Of a DNA stretch of 64,000 bases, positions 1 to 21,878 are shown one piece after another; position 1 is the first letter of the stretch; each line of letters opens with the position of its first letter. Below the pieces are notes generated by a model, which made no database searches, was not told the origin of the DNA, and worked only from the letters and a program-made list of their open reading frames with translations. This DNA comes from Conexivisphaerales archaeon (GTDB lineage: Archaea > Thermoproteota > Nitrososphaeria > Conexivisphaerales > DTJL01). The DNA is taken from positions 1 to 64,000 of the forward strand of contig JAVYTR010000002.1 of the NCBI GenBank assembly GCA_038728585.1, in the 5' to 3' direction. The translations under genes were made by a program, and so were the position numbers.

Positions 1-329
1 GGAGCAGAAGATATCCCCCTAACCTATGTGGAGCCGAGAAACACGTCGAAAGAGTGTCCTCGGTGTGGAAGCATAGGTATTAGAGAGGGTTCAAGTGTCC
101 GAACGGACACGTTGACCATGCCGATGTAAACGCATCGTTCAACGTTGCGTTGCGTCCTCCTTCAGTGGAAGGCATTGGTCGATTGCATGCAGACAGAGAT
201 GCATGCAAGGGGAGCGCTGATACCCCCAAAGGGGCAACTCCGAGAACGACGGAGACCTCAGAACCCCCGAAGCTTCAGCTAGGGGAGTATGTCAGCCCAG
301 GCATGTTCTCCCATACTTCACGGTTATAA
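1..329 (+). pseudogene. tnpB: 3' end of a degenerate IS200/IS605-family TnpB
   Basis: Reading frame 1 encodes the first zinc knuckle of TnpB (TSKECPRCGSIGIREG, about bases 43-90). The frame then runs into a stop. The rest of the domain (FKCPNGHVDHADVNASFNVA, from base 90) continues in frame 3 to a TAA at 327-329. A one-base frameshift near 83-90 therefore splits the C-terminal zinc ribbon and RuvC-III region. The second knuckle reads CPNGH where CPxCGH is usual, so one ligand codon may also be lost. The gene enters from the left edge, so its full extent is unknown. It is probably an inactive remnant; a sequencing error cannot be excluded. Confidence 0.8.
183..317 (+). ncRNA. hairpin-rich 3' end of tnpB, candidate omega-RNA/right-end scaffold
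   Basis: Several perfect inverted repeats are packed into the last 150 bp of the tnpB remnant: TTGCATGC (183-190) with GCATGCAA (201-208), CCCC-AAA-GGGG (224-234), CTCCG (238-242) with CGGAG (250-254), and AGTATG (286-291) with CATACT (312-317). In IS200/IS605 elements the guide (omega) RNA and the right-end hairpin overlap the tnpB 3' end, so these stems fit that position. Transcription and function are inferred. Confidence 0.35.
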
Positions 330-14272: not shown

Positions 14273-15967
14273 TCAGCTTGTCTTTAACTGAGTTTCTGAA
14301 GCGTTTAGAACCTCAAGTTCAATCACTTTTTCCACCTGGTTTCCGAAGAAGTCCTTGAAGTTTCTATGGCTATATTTATCCTTAAAGAGTTTTTTGACAA
14401 GCTTTTTCTTCTTTTCATCAGCTAAGATTTGAAAGCTGCATTTAAGCCTCCTTCCCTCTAATTCAACTATAACCTCATTTGAAGCGTTGATGCTTTTTGC
14501 CAGGTCAAAGTTCTTATGCTGCGATGGGATGACGTAAAATTTGCCTTTTTTGAAGGCAAACCAGTATGAAGGAGAGGTTGATGATTGCTGCCCTTCGGAA
14601 GAGTAAATCTTGATCTCTGCAACTCCTTTGAGTCTTCTCTCTCCCAGGAACTCCTGTTCCTGCTTGGCAATCGGCTTTCCCTTTCCTATGTTGTGTATCA
14701 TGTACAGGAACCAGACCATAGACACGAGAATGAGTGGGCCAGATAGCGCCTCCCAGTAGGGAAGATAGCCAGACCTCAGGGAGTAAAAATCTCCTGCTGC
14801 TCTGACGAGCATGCCCAAGTTGAGAAAGATTAGAGGGTAGTAGGAGAGGCCTGTCGTAGGGCCCCTTCTACCGAGAAGGCCTGGCAATAGCATGGGGGCA
14901 TAGCAGAGTATAGTCGAACCGATGAAGCCTATAGCAATCGCATGAATGAAGAGGTCTCTCATGTAGAAGGAATCCGCGATTGCCACGACTGCCGGTGGCA
15001 GTAAGTGAGCAGACATAAAATTGGGTAAGGTAATGATCAATCCTATCGCAGATGCCATGAAAAGCCATATGAACGCTGGAAGCATCGCTGCGTCATTGTA
15101 ATACATAATCCTGTAGTGAACCTGGGTCATAGATGGCCTGTACATCAGAGGGTGATTCATTTCAAACAGTTTCATCGATATACTTGCCGCTACAGCTGCA
15201 AGCAGGAAGAAGAACTCTGCAGAAAAGAGCATCAACGTTGAAGATGTCAATAAAGAAGTAAAGTCGAAGATTATGGCGATTCCTTGGAACAGCCAGGTTA
15301 GGTTTGCCCATCCAGGCCTGTAATCGCTTTGCCTGAAACTCACAGACCTGATTTCTACAGCATAGACCATTGATATGGCGAATCCAAGGAGGGAAAGATA
15401 GATCGATGAATCGGAAAAGATATCAATAGATATGCCTAGGAATCTGTTGTAAGCAAGTAACAGAGCAATTGAAGAGAGTAATGCTGCTAGAGCTGATTCT
15501 GCTATCAATGGATTCGTTTCAGGGAAGCCTCCCTTCTCCTCGAAAGCCAGAGATATAGTCTGCAGTGCAAAGACGAGTGTGCCAAAAAGAAAGAGTGTAG
15601 ATGCTAGTGAACCAATTAGAGAAGAAGCTAAGCTGTCTGATGCTATGAAGAAAATGTCTGATGCAGTTATTGCTGCGTAGCTGAGATATGCTAGGCTGAT
15701 CGACCTTATCCTCTCTGCCTTGAACCTTGGTACCAGAATGTAAGCGACGCCGATGACAAATTCGAATATGAACCCGTATGTCTGAGCGTAGGGATGAGGA
15801 GAGAAAAGAGAGGAAGAAAAAGAGAGTCTGAAACCAGAAAGAACTGCCAGCATGATAGAGCCAATACCTGTACCGTAGAGGCCAAAGAGTGCTCCTGTGG
15901 CTATGAAGAGAAGGGCAAGAGTCCTCTGATGGTTTCTCTGTCTAGTCAATGGCTCCAATCCATTCAC
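14273..15967 (-). CDS. NnrS-like membrane protein fused to a C-terminal split-barrel-like domain
   Basis: The protein is 564 aa. Residues 1-440 hold about twelve hydrophobic helices. Near residues 350-400 they carry the NnrS-like pattern HAIAIGFIGSTILCYAPMLL followed by LGRRGPTTG. NnrS proteins are haem- and copper-containing membrane proteins linked to NO metabolism in denitrifiers. The last 110 residues are soluble (KKGKFYVIPSQHKNFDLAKS, then EVIVELEGRRL) and recall the FMN/F420-binding split barrel of deazaflavin-dependent nitroreductases. I do not know this fusion. The start is a GTG at 15967; a plausible TATA (GAAATATAATTCC on the minus strand) lies 26-37 bp upstream. Confidence 0.65.
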   Translation of the reverse strand: MNGLEPLTRQRNHQRTLALLFIATGALFGLYGTGIGSIMLAVLSGFRLSFSSSLFSPHPYAQTYGFIFEFVIGVAYILVPRFKAERIRSISLAYLSYAAITASDIFFIASDSLASSLIGSLASTLFLFGTLVFALQTISLAFEEKGGFPETNPLIAESALAALLSSIALLLAYNRFLGISIDIFSDSSIYLSLLGFAISMVYAVEIRSVSFRQSDYRPGWANLTWLFQGIAIIFDFTSLLTSSTLMLFSAEFFFLLAAVAASISMKLFEMNHPLMYRPSMTQVHYRIMYYNDAAMLPAFIWLFMASAIGLIITLPNFMSAHLLPPAVVAIADSFYMRDLFIHAIAIGFIGSTILCYAPMLLPGLLGRRGPTTGLSYYPLIFLNLGMLVRAAGDFYSLRSGYLPYWEALSGPLILVSMVWFLYMIHNIGKGKPIAKQEQEFLGERRLKGVAEIKIYSSEGQQSSTSPSYWFAFKKGKFYVIPSQHKNFDLAKSINASNEVIVELEGRRLKCSFQILADEKKKKLVKKLFKDKYSHRNFKDFFGNQVEKVIELEVLNASETQLKTS

Positions 15968-16592: not shown

Positions 16593-17045
16593 TTAACCTA
16601 ACTTACTTAACTTTGCTTCATCTCTGTGAAGCTGTGTTATGTACATGCCAAGCACAAAAGCAGCTGGGTAGAGCACCTCTTCTTCAAGAGTGGCGTGGTG
16701 CAGGAGCATGTTCAGCGACTCAGTCACATCTTTGCTCTTCTTTTCTTCGTTCTTGATATTACTTGCTATCTCCGCTATCATCTTGTGCTCCTTCTTCATA
16801 TTTGCATAATCCCTTTTGAACATATCAAAGCATCTGGCAAGCCTTTGCAGCTTCTCTTGAGATGGAAGATGAGCTTTTGTCTTGACAAATTCAGGCAGTG
16901 AATTGAGCAGTGGCATGACGAAGTCTTCTTCCTTGGCAAAGTGTGGTTCGAGTATGGCCAGCAGTCTCTCCTTGGATTCTTCCTTCATAATGAGATTCCT
17001 GATGTTCTGCATCAGTTCTTCATGCTCTTCATCCAAAACTGTCAT
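16593..17045 (-). CDS. hemerythrin-like HHE-domain protein
   Basis: The protein is 150 aa and all helical. It has the HHE cation-binding spacing: an early EEHEELMQN, ILEPHFAKEEDFVMP, KKEHKMIAEI, and LLHHATLEEEVLYP near the C terminus. The His/Glu set could bind a di-iron centre. HHE proteins store or sense O2 and NO, or help repair Fe-S or di-iron sites damaged by NO (ScdA/YtfE). The promoter contains an inverted repeat, CCCTAACATTTATAGGGG, 37 bp before the start; a near-copy sits at the same distance before the DUF2249-cupin gene. It belongs to the NO island. Confidence 0.85.
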   Translation of the reverse strand: MTVLDEEHEELMQNIRNLIMKEESKERLLAILEPHFAKEEDFVMPLLNSLPEFVKTKAHLPSQEKLQRLARCFDMFKRDYANMKKEHKMIAEIASNIKNEEKKSKDVTESLNMLLHHATLEEEVLYPAAFVLGMYITQLHRDEAKLSKLG

Positions 17046-17081
17046 GGGCTGAGATAAGCCTTACATCAGTATATTCGTTAT

Positions 17082-17099
17082 CCCTAACATTTATAGGGG
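17082..17099 (-). promoter_or_regulatory. candidate operator upstream of the hemerythrin gene
   Basis: CCCTAACATTTATAGGGG forms an inverted repeat with arms CCCTA and TAGGG. On the minus strand it contains CTATAAATG, a good TATA box, so a protein bound here would affect TBP access. The left edge is 37 bp upstream of the start at 17045. A near-identical element lies at 19452-19469. Confidence 0.6.
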
Positions 17100-17216
17100 A
17101 TGCTGCAGCGTCTTATCTTTATAGATAGCTCTATTAGCATGTAGATTTGAGATGATACATCAGCTGATCATGAATAGGCATTCCTAACCCTTCTGCACTT
17201 GCTGTTTACCTGAGGA

Positions 17217-18389
17217 TCAAGAGAAGAATATTGTCCTTACAAACAGAAGGACAGCTATAAGTATCAGCCAGCCAGAGATACCTGATACTATTGCAAAGTA
17301 CCCGTTGTAAAAGAAGTCGCCAGAAATTCTAAGAGAATTCGATAATGTCAGTATGACAAGAGGCATAGTAGATGGATTAAGGGGGCTTCTTCTCTTCAGC
17401 AGGGAGGGGAGTATGACAGGCCCATGAGCCAGCAGCATCGTGCCTATGAATCCTACAGCCATCGCATGAATCATGGCATCATAGGCATTGCCTGCAGAGA
17501 AAGCAAAAAAATAGATACCAAAGACTGAAGCTGCAATCAGCCAGAAGTAAGCTACCGCTACATTGGCCATGACATATCTCTGAAGAGGAAATTTTGACTT
17601 GATGATTCTTTTGAAGTTTGAAGACTCATCAGTCAGAATCAGAGCTGCAACAATTATCATGATTGTAAAGGCGGAAGCCATAAGCCAACTCGAATCGGAG
17701 GAAGAGACTGTTGCTGCCAGCGTCAGGATAAAAAGTAGAATACAACCATAGAAGCCTAACCTGAATTTCGATTCAGAATAGCTGGTGGTTGAATACCTTG
17801 TCAACTCTATCCTTTCGCCAAAGATGAATATTGCTGGGAAGAGAAGAAGCATCACAGCCTCAGGAGCGTTTGAAATAAATCCTGAACGATATGTCAGAAT
17901 CGCATAGGCTTCAAGCGGGAAGATAGATAGAATCATGAAGTAGAAAGGGAGCCTGATGCCTGTCTTTTTTGAAAGACTGAACATCAGAAATATGAAGCAA
18001 AGAAGCCCAGCAAATATAAGGAAGGAACCTATCAGAGCAAAGTAGAATATTCCTGCAAAGTCTCCTGCAATCTGCAAAAGCAGGCCAGCCTGAGTTAGCG
18101 GAACCATAAGTCTGCTAGCAAGTATGCTTGACTTCTGAAGGTTCAGTATCGATATCCCAGCATACCTTTCGCTCATGATAATCGGAGCAAGAAAACCAAA
18201 GACCATGATGTTTGGGTGAGCCTCGTACAGAGGGATAAGAAATGACGGATAGACCTGTATCCCGTGCAGGTTCATCAACCTGAAGATGCCTACAAGCAGA
18301 CCAAGAAGCATGAAACCAAGTGATGATACAAGCCTCAGCCTAGAGGAGCGCAGGTAGCTGTTTGTGATGTCTGCACTCCTTTCGGCCAA
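17217..18389 (-). CDS. NnrS-like membrane protein
   Basis: The protein is 390 aa with about twelve hydrophobic segments. The N terminus has LYEAHPNIMVFGFLAPIIM, and a later HAMAVGFIGTMLLAHGPVIL is followed by LKRRSP and LSNSLRISGDFFY. Histidine-bearing helices of this kind are the hallmark of NnrS. It parallels the membrane part of the 564-aa fusion, so the island has two paralogues. The start is a TTG at 18389. It is the third gene of an operon with the DUF2249-cupin and MIP18 genes, 26 bp after the latter. Confidence 0.75.
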   Translation of the reverse strand: MAERSADITNSYLRSSRLRLVSSLGFMLLGLLVGIFRLMNLHGIQVYPSFLIPLYEAHPNIMVFGFLAPIIMSERYAGISILNLQKSSILASRLMVPLTQAGLLLQIAGDFAGIFYFALIGSFLIFAGLLCFIFLMFSLSKKTGIRLPFYFMILSIFPLEAYAILTYRSGFISNAPEAVMLLLFPAIFIFGERIELTRYSTTSYSESKFRLGFYGCILLFILTLAATVSSSDSSWLMASAFTIMIIVAALILTDESSNFKRIIKSKFPLQRYVMANVAVAYFWLIAASVFGIYFFAFSAGNAYDAMIHAMAVGFIGTMLLAHGPVILPSLLKRRSPLNPSTMPLVILTLSNSLRISGDFFYNGYFAIVSGISGWLILIAVLLFVRTIFFS

Positions 18390-18415
18390 GAATCTACAGC
18401 TCCCAGATGAAGTTG

Positions 18416-18736
18416 CTATATCCCAAGAGCTCTATGCGCTTCCTCGCTCATCATCGACGGATTCCATGGTGGGTCGAAGACTATCTGAACGTCAACATCT
18501 CTTACCCCTTTTACTGACATGCAGGCCCTTGTTACTTCATCCATCAACCACGGCCCAACAGGGCAACCTGGAGAAGTAACTGTCATCTTTATGCTCACAT
18601 GGCCAGAATCGTCCACGTTCAGCTCATAAATTAGCCCAAGGTCCACTATGTTGAACGGTATTTCAGGGTCATAGCACGTTTTCAAAGCCTCAAGAAGCTG
18701 GTTTGTTATCTTCTCGTTCGGAGCCGTTGCGATCAA
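18416..18736 (-). CDS. MIP18/DUF59-family Fe-S assembly protein (SufT/PaaD-like)
   Basis: The protein is 106 aa. It matches the DUF59 pattern: CYDPEIPFNIVDLGLIYEL, then MTVTSPGCPVGPWLMDEV with the conserved Cys, and FDPPWNPSMMSEEAHRALG at the C terminus. SufT/PaaD-type members help insert or mature Fe-S clusters. In the NO island, between DUF2249-cupin and NnrS genes, a role in repairing NO-damaged clusters is a reasonable inference. Confidence 0.88.
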   Translation of the reverse strand: MIATAPNEKITNQLLEALKTCYDPEIPFNIVDLGLIYELNVDDSGHVSIKMTVTSPGCPVGPWLMDEVTRACMSVKGVRDVDVQIVFDPPWNPSMMSEEAHRALGI

Positions 18737-18788
18737 ACTGCTATTTCACCTTGAACAATCTTAATCATGCTCATGGCTAAATGTATTC

Positions 18789-19415
18789 TCATTCGAATTT
18801 TCCCTCTGCAAGCTTCTTTGTAACCTCTTCGTGGTCCCTGTCTGATGGAGGTGGAGAAACAAGGTGAAGTGCTTCAACCTCTGTCTCAGCAATCAGTCCT
18901 CTCCTCACGCCTCCAGGAACCACTATAATGCTTCCTGGGAAGACCTTTGCCCTTTCCTTTCCTGCAATGACTTCACCTCTCCCCTTGACAATCAGCAGCA
19001 CAACGTCGTTCGCTGGCGTGTGGACAGGAATGAACTGACCAGACTTTAGGTAGACCAGAAGCACCCTGTAATCATCCCTGCTGAAGACAGGAACAGGCCT
19101 GAAGTACTTCTCGTCATACTGTCTCAGCTTTTCGAATGAAGTTATTATCACCTCATCCTTTCTGGGAAGTTCTTCGCTGACTTCTCTCTTTCTGAACCTA
19201 GCTATCCACTTGCCAGGCTCCACCATCTCTGCAGAATAGGATGAAGGGTCGAAGTCATCCCTTTCGTGCTGCATGAAGTAGAGAAGGTGAAGCGGCTCGT
19301 GGTCGTTTATTATAATGAGTTCCTCTCCAGGTTTCAGACTCTCGAACCTCTCAAGTATCAGCTGATGCCTTTGAAAAGGAGGGATAGCTCTGACATCGAA
19401 TTCTATCACTGGCAT
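18789..19415 (-). CDS. DUF2249 plus cupin fusion protein
   Basis: The protein is 208 aa. The first 75 residues follow DUF2249 (DVRAIPPFQRHQLILERF, then IIINDHEPLHLLYFMQ). DUF2249 is often found with hemerythrin and denitrification genes. The second half is a small cupin: VLLVYLKSGQFIPVHTPAND, VLLIVKGRGEVIAG and FPGSIIVVPGGVRRG. A metal site in the cupin is likely but degenerate, with one clear His. It heads the operon with the MIP18 and NnrS genes and has the shared inverted repeat 37 bp upstream. Confidence 0.82.
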   Translation of the reverse strand: MPVIEFDVRAIPPFQRHQLILERFESLKPGEELIIINDHEPLHLLYFMQHERDDFDPSSYSAEMVEPGKWIARFRKREVSEELPRKDEVIITSFEKLRQYDEKYFRPVPVFSRDDYRVLLVYLKSGQFIPVHTPANDVVLLIVKGRGEVIAGKERAKVFPGSIIVVPGGVRRGLIAETEVEALHLVSPPPSDRDHEEVTKKLAEGKFE

Positions 19416-19451
19416 GCTTTTAATTTCTTAAAGCTGAGCGGATATCGTTTT

Positions 19452-19469
19452 CCCCTAACGTTTTAGGGG
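19452..19469. promoter_or_regulatory. candidate operator between the DUF2249-cupin gene and its divergent regulator
   Basis: CCCCTAACGTTTTAGGGG is an inverted repeat with seven-base arms CCCCTAA and TTAGGGG. It is 37 bp from the DUF2249-cupin start, the same distance as the copy upstream of the hemerythrin gene, and 89 bp before the TTG of the Bat-type regulator. It could serve both directions. Confidence 0.65.
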
Positions 19470-19557: not shown

Positions 19558-20205
19558 TTGTTTGAAGTGGTCTTTGAAGTTGATCCACCTGTAGAATGGG
19601 TAAGGACTGTTTTAGCTCATGATGGAGTCGTCCGGATAAGGGACATAAAGACAGCACATGGAGATGAAGTCAGTGATTTTGTAGAGCTTTCAACAAAAAA
19701 GAACGATGCTGAGCTTCTGGTGAAACACCTGAAGGAATCTGTGGAATGGAGCGACCTAAAGAAGGTAGGCAAGGATACTGTAATAGGCACTGTAAGGACC
19801 CATGGCTGTCCGCTATGCAGTGTATTCGAAGGCCTGAATTGCTTTCTTGTATCAGCCAGAACAACATCTTCAGGAACGATGGAGTGGCACTTTTTTGCAA
19901 GTGAGCCTGACCAGCTGAAGGAACTTTACTCTAGGCTTGACAGGAGAGGGATAAGGTACAGAATAGTCAAGGTCAGCAATAAGCTTGGGAAGGTTGACAT
20001 GACTGCGAGACAGGAAGAGATACTGCGCCTAGCTTATCAGCTTGGGTTCTATGAATTCCCGAAGAGGATAACGCTGAAGGGCCTTTCAGAGAGGCTTGGA
20101 GTTGCTCCAGGCACATTATCAGAAATACTTCGCAGAGCTCAGAAGAATCTGCTCTCAAAGTACATTAGCGATGACAGCTTTAGTTCTGAGCATCGCCAGA
20201 CTTGA
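19558..20205 (+). CDS. Bat-type HTH_10 transcriptional regulator with CxxCx7C motif
   Basis: The protein is 215 aa. The C terminus is an HTH_10 domain: LTARQEEILRLAY-like MTARQEEILRLAYQLGFYEF, then LSERLGVAPGTLSEILRRAQ. The N-terminal sensor part has HGCPLCSVFEGLNCF (about residues 82-96), giving Cys-x2-Cys-x7-Cys. Haloarchaeal NarO/DmsR-type regulators of anaerobic respiration carry a similar cysteine set, as I recall. No ATG is possible: an in-frame stop lies at 19528, so the TTG at 19558 is used. An out-of-frame ATG at 19539 is not usable. It is divergent from the DUF2249-cupin operon and probably controls the island, sensing NO or redox through these cysteines. Confidence 0.8.
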   Translation: MFEVVFEVDPPVEWVRTVLAHDGVVRIRDIKTAHGDEVSDFVELSTKKNDAELLVKHLKESVEWSDLKKVGKDTVIGTVRTHGCPLCSVFEGLNCFLVSARTTSSGTMEWHFFASEPDQLKELYSRLDRRGIRYRIVKVSNKLGKVDMTARQEEILRLAYQLGFYEFPKRITLKGLSERLGVAPGTLSEILRRAQKNLLSKYISDDSFSSEHRQT

Positions 20206-20282: not shown

Positions 20283-21878
20283 TTGCACTGGCAATATTTT
20301 GAGTTGAACAAGTCAGCAGCAATTGCTATTATCGCTGTTCTGGTTGTTGCTGTTCTGGCTGGAGCTGGCCTCTTGCTATCATTCTCTGCAAGACATTCAA
20401 GAAGCTCAGGCAATAACTTTGATGTAATCGCTGACTATCAGAATGCGTCGCCTGGAAGGGGTCTCGTAAGACTGCCTTATCCATTCTTCGGAGCAGGCGG
20501 TGTTGGGTCCTCGAAACTTTCTTCAAACCCCCAGCTTTTGAGCCTTCTTCTTTCCTCAGGAATTGCGTGGACCAGAGTGGAGGCTCAGCTTCCTCTGGTC
20601 TTTCCTACACCGTCATCAATGCGTTCACCTGACTACTCCTCGATTGATGCAGAGCTTCAGGCAGCTACTTCAGCAGGCTTCAGTCACATAATCATTCTGG
20701 TTGATTATACACCACCATGGCTAATCAACGATACAGGCTTTCCATGCCTGACTGCAGCTCATTATCCTCCATCAAACTTCACCGAATGGGGAGAGTTGGC
20801 ATCTATGATAGTCCAGCATATATACTCAAAGTTCAATCTGCCATCTTACTACATCGAAATATGGAACGAACCTGATGCTGCCAAGTTTCTGTGTGTAAAT
20901 CCTTCAGAAAGGGAAGCAACTTACTTCTCAATATTCAAGGCAGCTGCTGTTGCTATATCTAATGAGGTTAACAGCAGCAGGGTGATTCTGGGAGGGCCTG
21001 CCCTCGCAAACCCCGTTAGAGATGCTAAGATGATTTACGATTTTGTTCATGATGAAGAAATAGCAGGCTACATAGGTTTTGTATCATACCACCAGTATTC
21101 ACTTGCAAGTAGCTATGATACATGGTTAGGAAATCAAGAGTCAGTTCTCCAGGCTGAGCAGAGTCCGATAACAGGCTATGCAGCAGTCTACATCAACATT
21201 TCAAACATAGTGCACCATGGCCTGCAGCCCGATCCTGCCAATACACCTGTCTTCATAACAGAATACAACAGCAACGCAGTCCTGCCAGGATGCTGCGGAA
21301 ATTCACCAGTTTATGCTCCTTTGTACAATGCACTGGTAGTTTCCGACCTGTTTCAAACAGTCAGAATGAACGGAAGCGATGGTTCGCTTCCAGCTGGCAT
21401 TATCTATTTCACGCTCAGCTCTCCAACTACTGGTGCATGCATGTTCGGAACATGGGACGCTCAGATGGACTGTTCAACTTCTGGGCCGATACAGCCTTAC
21501 CCGTCTTTCTATCTCTATCAGCTGATCGCCTCATCCAACTACCTAGGAATTGCAGGGAGCAGCTATCTCGCTGCATATTCGACAAAGCTGAGCAATCTGA
21601 CTTTGACTTTCCTTCCTTTGCTAAGCGATAAGTCTTTCAGCCTGGTAATAGTCAACCCATATCAGAACAACGTGAAAAACGTCAGCATACTTTTCAAGAA
21701 TTTGGCTCTTCAAACCTGTCCTGCTAGAGCTTGGGTTTATACAATAGTCAATTCTAGCAGTAATGAGAGCATAGAAAGCAGCCAGTTGCAAACTGCAAGC
21801 AATAGTCAGGGTTGCTCTGTAGTTATGAGCCAAGTGCCTGGCTACAGTGTATTGGCAATATCTCTACCGAGAGGTTGA
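20283..21878 (+). CDS. secreted clan GH-A glycoside hydrolase, GH39-like
   Basis: The protein is 531 aa. A signal or anchor helix (about residues 11-33) is followed by a beta-alpha barrel. The acid/base is probably Glu196 in YIEIWNEPDAAKF and the nucleophile Glu327 in VFITEYNSN; both are at the ends of barrel strands, as in GH39 and related clan GH-A enzymes. The last 120 residues look like a beta-rich accessory domain. The start is TTG at 20283 or, more simply, TTG at 20304, which begins MNKSAAI. Substrate is unknown. Its surface location and many sequons fit a polysaccharide-degrading enzyme. Confidence 0.7.
   Translation: MHWQYFELNKSAAIAIIAVLVVAVLAGAGLLLSFSARHSRSSGNNFDVIADYQNASPGRGLVRLPYPFFGAGGVGSSKLSSNPQLLSLLLSSGIAWTRVEAQLPLVFPTPSSMRSPDYSSIDAELQAATSAGFSHIIILVDYTPPWLINDTGFPCLTAAHYPPSNFTEWGELASMIVQHIYSKFNLPSYYIEIWNEPDAAKFLCVNPSEREATYFSIFKAAAVAISNEVNSSRVILGGPALANPVRDAKMIYDFVHDEEIAGYIGFVSYHQYSLASSYDTWLGNQESVLQAEQSPITGYAAVYINISNIVHHGLQPDPANTPVFITEYNSNAVLPGCCGNSPVYAPLYNALVVSDLFQTVRMNGSDGSLPAGIIYFTLSSPTTGACMFGTWDAQMDCSTSGPIQPYPSFYLYQLIASSNYLGIAGSSYLAAYSTKLSNLTLTFLPLLSDKSFSLVIVNPYQNNVKNVSILFKNLALQTCPARAWVYTIVNSSSNESIESSQLQTASNSQGCSVVMSQVPGYSVLAISLPRG

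Follow-up and report, generated by a model that had tools for sequence, protein, structure and literature searches.

Introduction

Very few regulators of nitrate and N2O metabolism have been described in archaea. The closest described system is a haloarchaeal denitrification motif, CGAAYATDKTYG, published in the promoters of nar, nirK, nor, nos and some DUF2249 genes (PMC11218638) and reported in other haloarchaea by Hattori 2016, as cited in PMC10062603. In Haloferax mediterranei, mutations of the motif reduce nos and nor promoter activity; mutations of the narG motif cause no drop (PMC10062603). According to a 2024 study, NarO is the sole regulator described, and the identity of the factor that binds the haloarchaeal motif is undisclosed (PMC11218638). 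Two further systems invite comparison: Bat of Halobacterium, which by definition has PAS and GAF sensory domains (PMC11218638), and the bacterial NO regulons of NsrR, NnrR/DNR, NorR and HcpR (PMC1274295). The bacterial regulons have target types similar to those reported here (NnrS, hemerythrin), but regulator family, site and promoter layout, the latter archaeal, are all different at the present locus.

Here we describe a 16-bp palindrome, CCCTAA-N4-TTAGGG, found before genes of a putative NO island. It is of a known kind, that of the haloarchaeal denitrification motif, and what is new is the variant in another archaeal phylum; we found no report of such a site in Thermoproteota in the open-access literature. 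The palindromes are probably the sites of a dimeric, cysteine-bearing HTH_10 protein, similar to NarO and DmsR, that regulates N-oxide genes.

Two palindromes in the NO island

The window is a 64,000-nucleotide stretch of the genome of a Conexivisphaerales archaeon. Its island has the following features, the distances to ATG being counted from a 17-bp core (hemerythrin) and a 16-bp core (DUF2249-cupin).

16593-17045, minus strand: hemerythrin-domain protein, 150 aa, putative target (Pfam PF01814, 8.2e-7)
17069-17076, minus strand: TATA-like segment GAATATAC, closely following the palindrome, at about -31 to -24 relative to the hemerythrin start
17082-17099, minus strand: hemerythrin-promoter palindrome, predicted regulatory site, CCCTAACATTTATAGGGG (gene strand CCCCTATAAATGTTAGGG); site end to ATG, 36 bp
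17217-18389, minus strand: NnrS-like membrane protein, 390 aa, in the DUF2249 string (Pfam PF05940, 2.6e-5, just under the gathering score)
18416-18736, minus strand: DUF59/MIP18-type Fe-S assembly protein, 106 aa (Pfam PF01883, 1.8e-17)
18789-19415, minus strand: DUF2249-cupin protein, 208 aa, putative target, first of the string (Pfam PF10006, 1.2e-20)
19440-19447, minus strand: weak TATA-like segment CGATATCC, at about -32 to -25 relative to the DUF2249-cupin start
19452-19469, minus strand: DUF2249-cupin-promoter palindrome, predicted regulatory site, CCCCTAACGTTTTAGGGG (gene strand CCCCTAAAACGTTAGGGG); core end to ATG, 37 bp
19558-20205, plus strand: HTH_10 regulator RegA, with CxxCx7C, divergent, candidate binder of the site (Pfam PF04967, 4.5e-18, C-terminal)

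Both palindromes reported by the first-pass annotation lie where it had placed them, and the minus-strand starts at 17045 (hemerythrin) and 19415 (DUF2249-cupin) are as it gave them. Its distance of 37 bp holds for the DUF2249-cupin gene but is 36 bp for hemerythrin. The CCCTA and TAGGG arms do match, as it had said, but the spacing does not, since the inner spacers are one base apart (CCCTA-N7-TAGGG vs CCCTA-N6-TAGGG). The 16-bp form is near-universal in relatives, with 20 sites of spacer 4 and 0 of spacer 5.

The palindromes had also been thought to sit over a TATA-like segment, which the alignment contradicts. In 20 curated promoters the site ends 33-37 bp before the ATG (mode 36), and the AT-rich peak comes after it, at -30 to -22; the TATA-like letters within the hemerythrin palindrome are absent from orthologous sites. 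An AT-rich zone so placed is the BRE/TATA layout of leaderless archaeal mRNAs, so that the site stands directly upstream of the core promoter, which it adjoins without overlying the TATA box.

The gene content of the island recurs in relatives. The NnrS-like gene keeps the same order within the DUF2249 string of genome G002, and the DUF59 gene is adjacent also in G001, G002 and Sulfolobaceae-like genomes. A 564-aa membrane protein of the window (14273-15967), without a match in Pfam or NCBIfam, is weakly linked to NnrS-like proteins by homologue search; no palindrome was seen upstream of this second NnrS-like gene, so that genes of target type do not all bear the site. A glycoside hydrolase family 39-like protein (20283-21878) adjoins RegA. 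The first 295 positions of the window (1-295) hold an element of about 295 bp with five further near-full copies in the genome (C6:79432, C1:450553, C4:86260, C1:322540 and C2:214135; 92-97% identity) and two partial ones.

Conservation within the family

The family comparison comprised the window genome (G000) and three other genomes, including G001 (Thaumarchaeota archaeon Centralia_MAG_53) and G002 (Nitrososphaeria archaeon DRTY1_bin.15). The DUF2249 proteins of the family are 59-70% identical to that of the window. G001 has the sites CCCTAACATGTTCGGG before DUF2249, CCCTAAGTTGTGAGGG before hemerythrin (L042:9158, 33 bp before the ATG) and CCCTTACCTATTAGGT before narG; its island is split, and each part still has its own site. 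In G002 the sites are TCCGAACATATTAGGG (DUF2249) and CCCTAACAGATTAGGG (narG). A further site of the window genome, at C3:38840 and with one mismatch, lies between narG (TIGR01580) and a second HTH_10 gene, RegB, an arrangement also found in G001 and G002.

The RegA orthologue of G002 (L043:9515-10143, contig C52) is split over two frames by a frameshift, likely a sequencing error, the contig coverage being low (3.57).

The site in other Thermoproteota and in haloarchaea

Orthologues of the DUF2249-cupin gene occur in families f29 and f55, with CCCTAA-N4-TTAGGG or near forms in their promoters. Family f29 is probably Sulfolobaceae, judging from genome make-up and protein content. Around 11 DUF2249-cupin loci of other Thermoproteota (141 kb) we counted 20 sites when allowing up to one mismatch, nearly all of them with the 4-bp spacer; the 59 permuted half-sites gave a mean of 0.29 and never more than 2. 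In the 31 Sulfolobaceae-like genomes the exact palindrome occurs 20 times and the reversed control 4 times. Genes behind the f29 sites encode DUF2249-cupin and NnrS-like proteins, a small membrane-protein family and a radical SAM/SPASM protein.

Among class relatives (family f6), a site precedes NosZ (TIGR04246, 2.5e-231) and another a COX2/COX1 operon, with a Cys-HTH_10 gene directly behind and, in G033, nosD and nosL beside it. From this gene setting the COX2/COX1 pair may be an NO reductase. With narG, NnrS-like, NosZ and COX2/COX1 genes also bearing the site, the predicted regulon is wider than the NO island.

The resemblance to the haloarchaeal motif lies in the palindrome, in the core AAC-N2-GTT and in the position before nar/nir/nor/nos and DUF2249 genes. 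The gene company is likewise of that type, with DUF2249-cupin, hemerythrin and narG here and NosZ and COX2/COX1 in class relatives. The outer half-site, however, is CCCTAA and not CGAA, and the present site occurs outside Halobacteria and also before hemerythrin and NnrS-like genes. The window sites read CCCTAACATTTATAGGG and CCCTAACGTTTTAGGG, which is not the literal haloarchaeal consensus; only the orthologous sites of G001 and G002 are hybrids, with one half of haloarchaeal type (GTTCGG).

The haloarchaeal DUF2249 genes have a counterpart at the matching place. Of 20 such genes, 16 have CGAACNNGTTCG, within two mismatches of CGAACATGTTCG, ending 37-41 bp before the ATG, and at three mismatches 18 have CGAACATGTTCG. 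At DUF2249 genes the 16-mer ends 33-37 bp before the start in Thermoproteota, vs 37-41 bp, by our own measurement, for the haloarchaeal 12-mer, which corresponds to 35-39 bp for a 16-mer. In Haloprofundus an HTH_10 gene is divergent from DUF2249 genes, near nirK, with 36 bp between the end of CCCGAACTTGTTCGGG and the ATG; this pair has the anatomy of the window in another phylum. Loss of the site before orthologous genes, named by the first-pass annotation as the finding that would count against it, is not what we see: the site is kept in two other genera of the family, in Sulfolobaceae-like genomes and, as a variant, in haloarchaea.

Candidate regulators

RegA (19558) is a good candidate for the protein that reads the site, and RegB, beside narG on contig C3 near 38.9 kb, appears about as good. 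In the three family members that possess the island, a site adjoins RegA, and one adjoins RegB likewise. RegA is like NarO and DmsR in being short, with a C-terminal HTH_10 domain, a cysteine cluster and neither PAS nor GAF. The cysteines themselves differ: NarO reportedly has the pattern CXnCXCX7C, while RegA has only CxxCx7C, without the N-terminal cysteine, and RegB has C...CxxC. Relatives from f6 (L024, L026, L033) possess the full four-cysteine set, with CxxC, and where RegA has CxxCx7C, a haloarchaeal protein linked to DMSO reductase has CxCx7C. Near-full-length matches among plasmid-borne haloarchaeal proteins show about 23-29% identity.

The first-pass annotation had called the gene at 19558 Bat-type and the obvious candidate for a single regulator of the island. 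Like Bat it has HTH_10, but a Pfam search found none of the PAS, GAF or Bat-associated domains of a true Bat, and site and targets differ as well. RegA is a plausible candidate; the genome also encodes a second, different HTH_10 protein, RegB, with its own site. That the island shares one regulatory site is strongly supported by conservation, and the protein in question may be either RegA or RegB.

We consider it possible, if somewhat doubtful, that RegB is the main binder and RegA has another target or is a mere modulator. In each of the three family members RegB comes with a site of its own. Around 23 RegB-type genes of f29 (82 kb) we found 14 sites, where a control palindrome gave 0.4, so that in Sulfolobaceae-like genomes it is these genes that are enriched for nearby sites. 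Cross-reading of two result sets gives a strong RegB-type match in all Sulfolobaceae-like genomes with DUF2249-cupin, and the Sulfolobaceae-like relatives of RegA do not have CxxCx7C. On the other hand, RegA is the direct neighbour of a site in each case, that of the island in G000 and G002 and that of hemerythrin in G001, and in class relatives a Cys-HTH_10 gene stands directly behind the site-bearing COX2/COX1 operon. The recognition helices of RegA and RegB types are alike, so both may read the site.

In a regulator tree RegA groups with a widespread HTH_10 clade of f29 that is devoid of CxxCx7C, and RegB forms have no firm place; RegA, RegB and haloarchaeal forms have no supported join in this tree, in which many forks are open and the haloarchaeal rows, none of them authenticated NarO, are long branches. 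A search for related loci with the regulator alone as query found none, and a search of solved structures returned repeat proteins and a design, none of them relevant. Sites and regulators do not co-occur perfectly: genome G430 has well-placed sites and only a weak HTH_10 match.

A possible activation mechanism

Across archaeal lineages the site and its spacing are conserved with N-oxide genes, frequently in proximity to HTH_10 genes. Just upstream of BRE/TATA, about 36 bp before the start of an apparently leaderless promoter, the site is where an archaeal upstream activating sequence would be expected. The activating sequence of Bat lies just upstream of TATA as well. A dimer of the Cys-HTH_10 protein would bind the palindrome; it may sense NO or redox state via its cysteine cluster, the predicted signal being NO, or low oxygen with N-oxides. 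Once bound, it would recruit TBP and TFB at the weak TATA box, and so probably switch on hemerythrin, the DUF2249-cupin/DUF59/NnrS string and, elsewhere, narG.

Repression is the main mechanistic rival to activation. Here the site would be the operator of a repressor, either an HTH_10 or, for example, a MarR/TrmB-like protein, blocking TBP/TFB until released by NO or nitrite. A site abutting the BRE/TATA zone would also suit a repressor, and in G431 an HTH_10 gene starts 4 bp after a site, an arrangement that resembles autorepression. The MarR/TrmB-like gene divergent from DUF2249, in the place of an HTH_10 gene, was observed in one genus only (g60), however, and it is HTH_10 genes that recur near sites; mutations of the related haloarchaeal motif lower, rather than raise, nos and nor activity (PMC10062603). 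We therefore regard repression as unlikely and retain activation by a Cys-HTH_10 dimer as the preferred reading.

Chance expectation

By itself, the pair of palindromes is mildly unusual and gives modest support: the window has 2 sites, against a mean of 0.27 and a maximum of 2 for 59 permuted half-sites. In the 1.93-Mb genome the pattern CCCTAN5-8TAGGG occurs as 4 palindromes, 2 of which are the window pair, and the reversed pattern as 2. If up to one mismatch is allowed, CCCTWACNTNTTAGGG is found at only two places, 19453 in the island and C3:38840 before narG. Matches with two mismatches are mostly intragenic, few being near starts, and at up to three mismatches the genome shows no excess (182 vs 235), which makes a loose consensus useless for target prediction.

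The first-pass annotation had judged the matching pair hard to explain by chance; the window alone lends this modest support, and it is conservation that is decisive. A coincidence of two look-alike palindromes, compatible with the window count and with the nil excess at three mismatches, is hardly credible in view of the same-distance site before orthologues in several genera, families and classes, and we rejected it, barring recent transfer of whole DNA. Recent copying of DNA does not fit the orthologous DUF2249 proteins, whose identity within the family is no more than 59-70%.

A possible shared cis code

All this may reflect one old archaeal cis code: a palindrome of CCCTAA or CCGAAC about 36 bp before leaderless starts, read by Cys-HTH_10 regulators. 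In Nitrososphaeria, Sulfolobaceae-like archaea and Halobacteria alike it would control both the defence against NO and the respiration of nitrate, NO and N2O, the letters of its half-sites having drifted from lineage to lineage. We hold this broader proposal to be evenly balanced between true and false. A fixed-geometry site common to thermophilic, soil-type and halophilic archaea would yield a list of target genes that includes N2O reductase, together with two named candidate regulators, RegA and RegB. Sulfolobaceae and haloarchaea include laboratory strains that can be cultivated, which makes the idea accessible to testing even if the host organism is not grown.

Other genes behind the site

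Some Sulfolobaceae-like sites precede unrelated genes (archaemetzincin, folE). Exact sites before these genes or within genes (L110, L111, L115-L117, L119, L121, L127) were set aside as due to chance or to another function. Four genomes of genus g84 (L115, L116, L117, L119) share a perfectly conserved CCCTAAATATTTAGGG some 38-48 bp upstream of an archaemetzincin-like gene; this gene is possibly an unexpected member of the regulon, or uses another palindrome.

Two protein families (196 aa and about 234-252 aa membrane proteins) are encoded downstream of the site in several Sulfolobaceae-like genomes (L099:5366-5956, L099:4455-5189, L125, L123, L109). They have no Pfam match and are candidates for new NO-related proteins. 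A ferredoxin-type gene has an upstream site in two Sulfolobaceae-like genomes (L175:6240-6612, L108:5077-5449), and in G431 this gene is divergent from an HTH_10 gene.
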